Assembly: GCA_021794835.1 (NCBI GenBank)
Contig: JAJYQA010000041.1
Span: 1 to 64,000 of the forward strand
DNA length: 64,000 bases
Direction of reading: 5' to 3'
Source of the DNA: Actinomycetes bacterium
GTDB taxonomy: Bacteria; Actinomycetota; Aquicultoria; Aquicultorales; Aquicultoraceae
Shown in pieces: positions 2,354-5,750 of the stretch. Under the pieces are notes generated by a model. It worked only from the letters and a program-made list of their open reading frames with translations, ran no database searches and was not told the origin of the DNA. The translations under genes and the position numbers were made by a program. Each line of letters starts with the position of its first letter. Positions within the stretch are counted from its first letter, which is position 1.

Positions 2354-2382
2354 TTGACTATATTTGGGTGTAATAATAGTAT
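2354..2382 (+). promoter_or_regulatory. Possible promoter of the rny leader
   Basis: TTGACT (2354-2359) and TAGTAT (2377-2382) are separated by 17 bp. The -35 is good and the -10 is weak. Transcription from here would produce the structured leader that ends at the terminator near 2560. Confidence 0.45.
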
Positions 2383-2384
2383 AG

Positions 2385-2560
2385 ACGTAGAGAATTGGCA
2401 GAAGCACTTTGCTAAGAAGACTCATTTAGTTTTACATAGATTGGACAAAACTAAAGATGAGATAAAGTATTAGCTTCCGGCTGCAGTAAAAATGCCGGTT
2501 AGGCTAGTCATTATTGCCTTAGTAAAGAGGTTTTTGCCGAGCAATAGCTCGGTTTTTTTA
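2385..2560 (+). ncRNA. Candidate structured leader RNA or small RNA upstream of rny
   Basis: Three stem-loops follow one another. The first pairs CTCAT+TTAGTTTT (2421-2433) with AAAACTAA+ATGAG (2447-2461) over 13 bp with a 2-nt bulge. The second pairs TAGC/CCGGC with GCCGG/GCTA (2471-2506). The third is a terminator hairpin. I could not match it to any riboswitch or T-box consensus I know. It may be an attenuator of rny or an independent small RNA; the boundaries are inferred from the promoter and terminator. Confidence 0.45.
2537..2560 (+). terminator. Intrinsic terminator just upstream of rny
   Basis: CCGAGC-AATA-GCTCGG is followed by seven T residues. It ends about 20 bp before the rny start codon and only a few bases before its ribosome binding site. 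It therefore acts as an attenuator for any transcript starting upstream, or as the 3' end of a small RNA. Confidence 0.8.
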
Positions 2561-2580
2561 TTTAAAAGAAGGGGGCAACA

Positions 2581-4122
2581 ATGAGTGCGATTGTGATCGT
2601 AATTGTAGCTGTTGTAGCAGTTGCGGTCGGTTTAGCTGCAGGTTACGTTGCACGTAAAATGACTGCCGAAGCAAAGTTTGCCTCCGCCGAAGAAGTTGCA
2701 AAAAGGATTATCTCTGAAGCAGAAAGGGAAGCAGAATCAAAAAAGAAAGAAGCTTTAATTAATGCTAAAGATGAAATTCATGCCCTACGCTCAGAAGCAG
2801 AGCGTGAGTTGCGCGACCGGCGGAATGAAATCCAACGCATAGAGAGACGTCTGGGTCAGAAGGAAGAGTCTCTTGATGCCAGGGCAAACAATCTGGATAA
2901 GAAGGAGCGGGCATTTACCGATCGTGACCGAGAAATCACAAGAATTGAGAACGAGCTCTCTGAAATCTATGACAAGGAACTAAAGCTGCTTGAGCAAATC
3001 GCAGGTCTCACCGGCGAAGAAGCACGTCAACTCCTCATGAAGAGGATCGAGGATGAGACTAAGCATGAGGCGGCAATGATGATCCGTGATATCGAGGCCA
3101 GGGCAAAGGATGAGGCCGAGAAGCGGGCCAGAAACGTTATTGCGCTTGCCATCCAAAGATGTGCGGCGGACCACGTAGCAGAAACCACAGTATCCGTGGT
3201 CCCGCTGCCAAACGACGAGATGAAGGGTAGGATTATCGGAAGAGAAGGCCGAAACATCAGGGCGTTTGAGAATCTATCAGGTATCAACCTGATCATCGAC
3301 GACACCCCCGAGGCGGTCATCCTGTCAAGCTTTGACCCGGTCAGAAGGGAGATTGCAAGGCTTGCACTTGAGCGGCTTATCGCAGATGGGCGCATACATC
3401 CGGCAAGAATCGAGCAGATGTACGAGAAGGCGCGTGACGAGGTTGAGACGCACATTCGCGAGGTTGGCGAGCAGGCCACATTCGATACCGATATCCATGG
3501 GCTCCATTCGGAGCTTGTGCGCGTCCTGGGCCGGCTAAAATACCGGACGAGCTACGGACAGAATGTGCTCCAGCACTCTATTGAGGTGGCACACCTAGCC
3601 GGTATGATGGCGGCCGAACTTGGCGCTGATATCAAGCTGGCAAGAAGGGCAGGTCTCTTGCATGATATCGGCAAGGCCATTGACCACGAGGTTGAAGGGC
3701 CGCACGCCGTTATCGGCGCAGAGCTTGCGAAGAGACTTCATGAGCAGGCAAGCGTTGTTCACGCAATTGAGGCGCACCATGGCGATACTGAACCTCAGTC
3801 GGTTGAGGCAGTCCTCGTTCAGGCGGCAGATGCGGTATCCGGTGCTAGGCCTGGTGCAAGACGGGAGACGCTTGAGAGCTACATCAAGCGACTTGAGAAG
3901 CTTGAGACCATTGCCGAGTCTTACGAGGGTGTCGAGAAGTGCTACGCCATGCAAGCTGGCCGTGAGCTTCGAATCATGGTAAAACCTGAGGATATTGATG
4001 ATGCTAGGGCGGCAATGCTTGCGCGCGATGTGGCAAAGCAGATTGAAGCTGAGCTTGAGTACCCAGGCCAAATCAAGGTAATAGTAATTAGAGAGCACAG
4101 GGCAGTTGAGTATGCTAAATAA
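2581..4122 (+). CDS. rny: Ribonuclease Y
   Basis: RNase Y is the membrane-bound endoribonuclease that starts mRNA decay in many Gram-positive bacteria. The 513-residue protein has the full domain order: an N-terminal membrane helix (about residues 3-25), a long charged coiled coil to about 190, a KH domain with [10 protein letters not shown], and an HD domain with [10 protein letters not shown] (His-Asp metal ligands). The ATG at 2581 follows AAGGGGG. A leader with a terminator stands in front, and a rho-independent terminator follows at 4147. The recA-rny-spoVS order is as in Bacillus. Confidence 0.97.
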
Positions 4123-4172: not shown

Positions 4173-4183
4173 TTTTGTTTGGG

Positions 4184-4207
4184 GTGCCAAAGTTAAGACT
4201 TTGGCAC
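4184..4207. repeat. Perfect inverted repeat downstream of the rny terminator
   Basis: GTGCCAAAGT and ACTTTGGCAC form a perfect 10-bp stem around TAAG. It has no T tract and lies between the rny terminator and the next gene. TTGGCAC words also occur at about 2249-2280. It could be an operator or a transcript-stabilising hairpin; nothing in the sequence decides this. Confidence 0.5.
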
Positions 4208-4293
4208 ATCGAGGTCCCTTGATATATTGACAAAACAAACTTTCCACAGCACAATATAGACAGTATACGCAGCACTTACGCTAGGTTTTATAT

Positions 4294-5376
4294 ATGTCAG
4301 AGACCAAAAACAATCCGTTACTTAGCTTCGTAGCCAACCTAACCGGCGAGCAGTACCTCAAAATTGAGGAAGACCTTGGCCATGGTTTCGTCCGCCTGAA
4401 CACCAGCGAAGCAGAAAGACGCCAGGCCAAACATGATATCCAGTCCATGGAAGATATTGTTCTAGAGATGATGCGAAACTCCCGCGACGCAGGCTCAACT
4501 AGAATTTTTATTGCCTCTACTAAAGAAGACAATATCATTCGAAAGGTAACAATTATTGACGACGCATGGGGAATACCTCCTGACCTCCATAAACTAATAT
4601 TCGAGCCCAGGGTCACATCCAAACTCGAAAACGTCATAACCGACCGCTATGGAATCCACGGTAGGGGAATGGCACTTTTCTCAATTAAACAAGTTGCTGA
4701 TGAGGCCGAACTCGTTTTTTCTTCACCTGGGAGGGGCAGCGTATTCAGGGTACAAACTAGTACGGGCCTCTTGACTGAAAGAAAAGATCAATCCACATAT
4801 CCAACTATAAAGTATCGCAAAGGTGAGCCGATAATAATACGAGGACCGCATAATATTATAAGAACGGCACTCGAGTTCAACCTCGACTACCAGAACTTAG
4901 AGATTTACCTGGGTTCGCCGTCGGATATTTTGGCAACGATGTATTATCTATGCGCGCAGGATAAGGACAATAACGGGGGCAAATCCCAAGATTACAAGAT
5001 ATGGCGGTCTGTCAGCCAGGCTAAGTCCGCAGCAATTTTAGCCGATGTAGCCGAGCGAAGGCTGGGGCTTAAAATCTCGGTTAGAAACGCCCAGCGGATC
5101 ATGAGCGGTAGGGTCGGTCCTTTAAAAACAATGCTCGAGGCGCTCGGCAGGCAAGAAGAGCGCAAAGAGCCAAAAAGAAAAGTTGACCTTTTAAGGTCTG
5201 AGCCTCTTGCAAAGAGGATTTCCCAAGAAGATTTAGAGCAGCTAGCTGGGATTATTGGTAACAGTTTTAAGACTATAGCAGGCAAGTATTTTATGGAGTT
5301 AACCGAGGCTCCAGAGATAAAAACAGAGGAGAACTGTATAAAAATAACGATTAAGGTACAATCGTTAGGAAACTAA
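4294..5376 (+). CDS. GHKL-type ATPase of MutL/MORC-like type, function unknown
   Basis: The 360-residue soluble protein has an N-terminal GHKL ATP-binding domain. The N box reads EMMRNSRDAG (about residues 60-70), closer to the NSxDA of MutL/MORC/Hsp90 than to the NAxK of histidine kinases. The G1 box is IDDAWGIP, and the G2 box GIHGRGMAL sits near residue 118. No HisKA, receiver or membrane segment is present. The C-terminal half, with an EERKEPKRK basic stretch, matches nothing I recognise. It sits between rny and spoVS, where Bacillus has ymdB. ATP binding is well supported, the role is not. Confidence 0.75.
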   Translation: MSETKNNPLLSFVANLTGEQYLKIEEDLGHGFVRLNTSEAERRQAKHDIQSMEDIVLEMMRNSRDAGSTRIFIASTKEDNIIRKVTIIDDAWGIPPDLHKLIFEPRVTSKLENVITDRYGIHGRGMALFSIKQVADEAELVFSSPGRGSVFRVQTSTGLLTERKDQSTYPTIKYRKGEPIIIRGPHNIIRTALEFNLDYQNLEIYLGSPSDILATMYYLCAQDKDNNGGKSQDYKIWRSVSQAKSAAILADVAERRLGLKISVRNAQRIMSGRVGPLKTMLEALGRQEERKEPKRKVDLLRSEPLAKRISQEDLEQLAGIIGNSFKTIAGKYFMELTEAPEIKTEENCIKITIKVQSLGN

Positions 5377-5489: not shown

Positions 5490-5750
5490 ATGGAAGTACT
5501 AAAGGTTTCAGCAAAGTCTAGTCCAAATTCTGTTGCTGGTGCTCTAGCTGGCGTTCTAAGGGAGCGTGGAGGAGCCGAGATTCAGGTGATTGGCGCAGGA
5601 GCTTTAAACCAGGCGATTAAAGCTATCGCGATTGCAAGGGGGTTTGTGGCGCCAAGTGGTCTTGACCTCGTCGTCGTACCTGCTTTCACCGATATCTTAA
5701 TTAGCGGCGAGGAACGCACTGCAATCAAGTTGATTATTGAACCAAGGTAA
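5490..5750 (+). CDS. spoVS: Stage V sporulation protein S
   Basis: SpoVS is a small Alba-like protein of 86 residues that affects sporulation and septation in Bacillus and is widely conserved also in non-sporulating bacteria. The whole sequence fits the family, including KVSAKSSPNSVAGA, VIGAGALNQAIKAIAIARG and the C-terminal RTAIKLIIEP. AAGGAGG precedes the ATG at 5490, and a TATAAT at 5442-5447 could be its -10 element. Proximity to rny and miaB repeats the Bacillus order. No other sporulation gene lies in the window. Confidence 0.95.
   Translation: MEVLKVSAKSSPNSVAGALAGVLRERGGAEIQVIGAGALNQAIKAIAIARGFVAPSGLDLVVVPAFTDILISGEERTAIKLIIEPR

Follow-up and report, generated by a model that had tools for sequence, protein, structure and literature searches.

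In many Gram-positive bacteria, RNase Y initiates mRNA decay. To our knowledge, the setting of its level is known in detail only for Bacillus subtilis, where it is said to occur by mRNA cleavage. In B. subtilis, RNase Y regulates its own production: it cleaves its own message within the 5′ UTR and the early ORF (PMC10303841). The E. coli rne 5′ UTR (Rfam rne5) is likewise a structured feedback leader of a main decay endonuclease (as cited in PMC10303841), with control described as mRNA decay after stem-loop binding and not as attenuation. In attenuators such as riboswitch expression platforms, T-box leaders and L20 leaders, an alternative helix shares bases with the 5′ arm of a terminator.

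The leader described here precedes rny, the gene of RNase Y, and combines a terminator with a long-range helix (hereinafter designated P1). It resembles the B. subtilis leader in gene, in length (about 170 nt here, 164 nt there) and in holding a candidate site for RNase Y, which cuts the 5′ UTR there, whereas PMC10303841 mentions no terminator or antiterminator for B. subtilis and no P1-like long-range helix is described there. From the rne 5′ UTR it differs in enzyme and structure, and it has no Rfam match. It shares with attenuators the alternative helix that uses bases of the terminator 5′ arm, but the overlap is only 3 nt and is made by the RNA's own 5′ end, with no known aptamer, and the gene class of rny is absent from the structured-RNA surveys as far as their main text goes: in three such surveys of bacteria, the main text names neither rny nor RNase Y. 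Searches of open-licence papers found no rny attenuator.

Promoter, fold and terminator of the rny leader

In the window, the whole 64-kb stretch of DNA that was analysed, the gap between recX and rny comprises a sigma-70-type promoter, a predicted leader of ~170 nt and an intrinsic terminator (2354-2560). The computed elements and flanking genes are as follows (↓, cleavage).

222-1265, recA
1468-2115, recX
2354-2382, + strand, sigma-70-type promoter TTGACT-17-TAGTAT, predicted +1 at about 2389-2391
2397-2416, + strand, 5′ strand of P1, GGCAGAAGC-A-CUUUGCUAAG, beginning close to the RNA 5′ end
2421-2461, + strand, P2, a 13-bp hairpin, CUCAUUUAGUUUU/AAAACUAA..AUGAG, with core 2425-2433 paired to 2447-2455
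2436-2442, + strand, P2 loop motif AUAGAUU (G at 2439), a putative RNase Y G↓A cleavage site
about 2471-2507, + strand, P3, a sequence-variable hairpin taken from the fold and poorly conserved in sequence
2518-2538, + strand, 3′ strand of P1, CUUAGUAAAG-AG-GUUUUUGCC, its GCC common to the terminator
2536-2559, + strand, intrinsic terminator GCCGAGC-AATA-GCTCGGT plus T-tract (stem-loop 2536-2553)
2567-2576, + strand, Shine-Dalgarno-like AAGAAGGGGG, from sequence
2581-4122, + strand, rny, ribonuclease Y (TIGR03319 match, 772.6 bits; cut-off 454)

The TIGR03319 equivalog match identifies a true RNase Y gene directly 3′ of the leader. The initial annotation had proposed a promoter-like pair and, ~20 bp short of the rny start, the end of an intrinsic terminator, and both were found, the terminal T's running to 2559 and the rny ATG lying at 2581. 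A simple terminator scan returned 6 terminator-like sites against 4.4 expected, which is near chance, and the scan by itself is therefore no proof of a terminator; we accept this one as real because of the fold of the leader and its conservation across the class. The stem occurs once in the whole genome.

The 187-nt leader folds to −56.4 kcal/mol, compared with −38.5 ± 3.9 kcal/mol for 200 dinucleotide shuffles (z −4.63), and none of the 200 shuffles folds as well. P1 is a 19-bp long-range helix that pairs 2397-2416 with 2518-2538 and closes the whole RNA around P2 and P3. The 13-bp stem noticed initially corresponds to P2, and the second stem reappears as P3, which is less conserved than P2; both sit inside P1, the main element, which the initial annotation had overlooked.

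The promoter scan revealed no other + strand promoter-like site within the leader, and the 20 bp between terminator and rny are too short for a separate rny promoter. Since no promoter-like site lies between terminator and gene, rny expression depends on readthrough. As in an attenuator, an intrinsic terminator thus stands between the promoter and the first gene, with no later promoter.

Rfam 15 gave no match at gathering score in the 64-kb window, only sub-threshold, chance-level matches over 2116-2600, and none in eight related loci. This bears out the first impression that the leader fits no known riboswitch class, and a known riboswitch or sRNA family was rejected for lack of an Rfam match.

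Several further features were noted around the locus. Upstream of the conserved promoter, a promoter-like site TTGACA-17-TATAAC (2243-2271) occurs with three TTGGCAC repeats (2243-2280); it was rejected as a second upstream promoter, being absent from the genus mates G001 and G002. An inverted repeat 3′ of rny (4183-4208, TGCCAAAG-TTAAGA-CTTTGGCA) resembles the TTGGCAC repeats of 2246-2280 in sequence and may be an operator common to neighbouring promoters. The gene that follows rny (4294-5376), itself followed by a small SpoVS-like gene (5490-5750), encodes a 360-aa protein with a MutL/histidine-kinase-like ATPase N-terminus and weak NCBIfam matches only.

Conservation and covariation in the class

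When 60 relatives were searched at the DNA level, the region 5′ of rny was recovered in 23. Of 36 genomes belonging to the same GTDB class, 33 yielded RNase Y, and the upstream DNA was then read without regard to RNA, giving a class sample of 32 rny upstream regions from 13 families. A terminator lies directly 5′ of rny in all 32 loci read; its stem is GCCGAGC/GCTCGG in most of them, whereas the loop varies. A TTGACA-type promoter is found at the corresponding position in almost every genome of the class.

A covariance model built from seven sequences has its best match upstream of rny, on the correct strand, in 32/32 class regions, with E ≤ 0.04 in 31 of them and 0.52 in G022. In its own genome it matches once, upstream of rny (E 1e-36); the further matches there reach only E 1.8 and 2.6 and are unlinked to rny. 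A search of 397 genomes of the phylum gave 28 matches, 27 of them in the same class, and the class matches adjoin rny wherever rny shares the contig. The match outside the class (G037, E 0.004) is not 5′ of rny and was discarded as chance.

In an alignment of 21 sequences fitted to the covariance model, which favours the structure, 94.1% of cells are paired versus 40-55% when the structure is slid by 1-3 columns, two-sided change occurs at 16 pairs versus 6.9 ± 1.7 in shuffles, and the covariation score is 0.237 versus 0.132; none of 500 shuffles reaches the observed pairing, two-sided-change or covariation values. RNAalifold, run on a plain MAFFT alignment of 10 relatives, recovered P1 (with its GGC:GCC end), P2 and a 4-bp hairpin unaided. 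Within the P2 core, 7 of 9 pairs are changed on both sides in some relative, with 92.5% of cells paired. Compared with shuffled 5′ leaders, the P1 duplex is significantly better (p ≤ 0.045) in 28 of the 31 genomes tested; it is not significant in the other three, G016, G018 and G023. Loss of the stems in relatives had been named at the outset as grounds for dropping the idea; the structure is instead kept with covariation in the class, and the proposal of a structured RNA or attenuator 5′ of rny holds in that a conserved, covarying structure and a terminator lie between the only promoter-like site and rny. The leader is thus very probably a conserved cis-acting element of rny.

That the element is a passive terminator of upstream transcription, or a set of chance hairpins, without regulation, is a reading encouraged by the chance frequency of terminator-like sites in the simple scan; class-wide conservation with covariation and the position of the terminator between the only promoter and its gene make it barely credible. 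An independent small RNA would resemble this one in several respects, as stable sRNAs also have their own promoter, a closed 5′-3′ helix and a terminator, and the ~170-nt terminated RNA would then act in trans with rny merely downstream. We consider this improbable: the element is locked 5′ of rny in every class genome with both on one contig, exists as a single copy in the genome, is echoed by a similar hairpin 5′ of rny in Clostridia, and leaves no room after the terminator for rny to have a promoter of its own. A coding leader peptide was also considered and rejected, the ORFs 2354-2473 and 2492-2584 having no conserved counterpart, as judged by freely varying leader lengths and pairwise covariation.

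Overlap of P1 with the terminator and a model for control

GCC at 2536-2538 forms both the last three pairs of P1 and the first bases of the terminator 5′ arm, and full P1 and full terminator are therefore mutually exclusive; with P1 closed, the terminator shrinks from 7 to 4 pairs, leaving GAGC:GCUC. An alternative helix that shares 3 nt with the terminator is the second attribute of an attenuator found here. In almost every class genome, the best P1 pairing takes in 3 nt of the terminator arm, a reach that is not diagnostic alone since shuffled leaders often reach the GC-rich arm too. GGC starts the P1 5′ strand in nearly all genomes, and the bases before it vary. Divergent genomes keep the overlap with other letters: G012 (GCUU:AAGC, terminator AUAAGCUGAGC), G022 (GGU:ACC, terminator ACCCC-GAAA-GGGGU) and G019 (GGU:GCC). 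In families f4, f5, f6, f8 and f10 and in G033 (f11), GGC lies at or ≤2 nt from the predicted +1, which would make the 5′ terminus of the transcript itself the antiterminator.

When P1 or the full terminator is forced in the fold, the two states lie −5.1 to +5.1 kcal/mol apart, mostly −3.3 to +1.7, the full terminator being more stable by 3.8-5.1 kcal/mol in G022, G012 and G024. Near-equal modelled energies are what a switch would look like, with the proviso that an overlap of only 3 bp makes the difference small by construction.

Taken together, a cis-acting attenuator leader of rny is our best explanation, with a probability of roughly 0.55. From the computed elements, their overlap, the loop motif and the link to rny we infer a transcript, a readthrough ratio, a direction of the switch and a regulator. 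Transcription would start at ~2390, and the polymerase would have to pass the terminator (2536-2559) to reach rny. Closed P1 would cut the terminator to 4 pairs and make it leaky, acting as antiterminator, and the full terminator would form when P1 is absent or opened; that termination is regulated in this manner, with P1 as the antiterminator, seems somewhat better than an even bet. The likeliest input would be ribonuclease activity on the leader, by RNase Y (or RNase E/G) at AUAG↓AU of P2, and a cut in the P2 loop would yield negative feedback on rny via termination, by removing the protected 5′ terminus, or in both ways. A P2-loop cut alone would not open the 19-bp helix P1, and cutting would have to occur within seconds to influence termination.

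The loop motif itself is frequent: among 31 class leaders, 23 contain ATAGAT versus 2.7 expected from shuffles. In f1, as in several further families, it falls within the loop of P2, and it is missing from the leaders of f7, f9, f11, f12 and f13 among these 31. RNase Y weakly favours cleavage at G↓A where the RNA is AU-rich and unpaired, often with structure downstream (PMC11780869, PMC4608709, PMC11321564). As far as its letters go, the AUAG↓AU loop is compatible with this preference. The RNase E consensus is RN↓WUU, which AG↓AUU of the P2 loop would fit as well. Besides RNase Y, the genome encodes RNase E/G and RNase J (G000:C33:1324-2127 and G000:C41:3635-5272), and RNase E/G could be the actor on the leader instead of RNase Y. 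Given the loop and the analogy to B. subtilis, feedback of RNase Y on its own leader is plausible, and the chance that RNase Y is the sensed signal falls slightly short of even.

The same candidate cleavage site would also serve a scheme in which the terminator fixes readthrough at a basal level and the finished rny mRNA is regulated: RNase Y would cut the P2 loop, RNase J would enter at the end so created, and P1 would merely shield the 5′ end. Such a scheme has been published for B. subtilis (PMC10303841); the genome encodes RNase J as well as RNase Y, and in several families P1 begins on or beside the predicted +1, as 5′-end protection would lead one to expect. Control by stability alone leaves unexplained, however, the 3-base intrusion of P1 into the terminator, which is kept when both sequences change, and we regard it as rather unlikely. 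A riboswitch-like leader, in which P2 and P3 bind a ligand or protein effector and set P1 in response to a signal other than an RNase, would account for the three-way-junction-like layout, the conserved loop and the P1/terminator overlap, this being the usual layout of an expression platform. Such a leader is highly improbable here, as it matches no Rfam class, its conserved unpaired positions amount to about 7 nt in one loop, which is little for a small-molecule pocket, and the same single gene is always downstream.

The P2 loop of most f1 leaders also contains UACAUA (window 2433-2438), the sequence at which EndoA/MazF cuts in B. subtilis (PMC11780869). An EndoA/MazF-controlled transcript was rejected, the genome having no PemK/MazF match and UACAUA not being kept outside f1.

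rny loci outside the class

The spread of these features beyond the class was assessed in a sample of 80 rny loci, mostly from Clostridia, on which statements about that spread rest. A CCGAG-N(3-9)-CTCGG hairpin occurs within 160 nt upstream of rny in 13 of 79 such loci, mostly Clostridia. The other ~490 kb of the same loci contain one further CCGAG..CTCGG hairpin with a T-rich tail, in L093, all other matches being either those sites read on the opposite strand or stretches of GC-rich coding sequence. CTCGGT, ACTCGG, GCCGAG and CCGAGT rank among the most enriched upstream words of the 79 loci, behind promoter words, and TTGACA is present in 53 of the 79 upstream regions versus 5.9 expected. 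The Clostridia hairpin may be related to that of the class either by common descent or by convergence.

Tested against shuffled leaders, L030, L035, L038 and L103 clearly have a P1-like helix that extends to the terminator, the first three all carrying TGGGAGAAAATAGAAT near the start. It is weakly supported in L029 and L037 and unsupported in L034, L040, L045, L047, L080 and L093; L092 has a significant helix that ends short of the terminator.

In an out-of-sample test of the loop motif, ATAGAT was found 5′ of rny in 19 of the 79 loci versus 8.3 expected (z 4.1), the controls at the same loci giving 3 for the opposite strand, 8 for the region 3′ of rny and 2 within the gene. It ranks 48th of hexamers by z outside the class, far behind promoter and terminator words, and the out-of-sample support is therefore moderate.

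The class-wide terminator leader and the similar Clostridia hairpin suggest that RNase Y is generally controlled by premature termination, and the leader gives exact mutations for testing such control. The cell probably uses the folded leader to limit or tune the amount of RNase Y. In the broadest form of this idea, an old family of rny attenuators would extend across Actinomycetota and Clostridia and use the 5′ terminus of the transcript as antiterminator; since ribonucleases attack RNA 5′ ends and the loop has a preferred cut site, the leader would read out total decay capacity and set RNase Y synthesis to match. We offer this as speculation and deem it unlikely.

Minor observations from the same loci include a second CCGAG..CTCGG terminator-like hairpin just 3′ of rny at L093:3995, in a locus that has one 5′ too. 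The hexamers enriched upstream of rny include CATGCC and CCGACA, and the Bacillus-group leaders L074 and L087, which have no terminator hairpin, share TACATGCCGACATT 5′ of rny.
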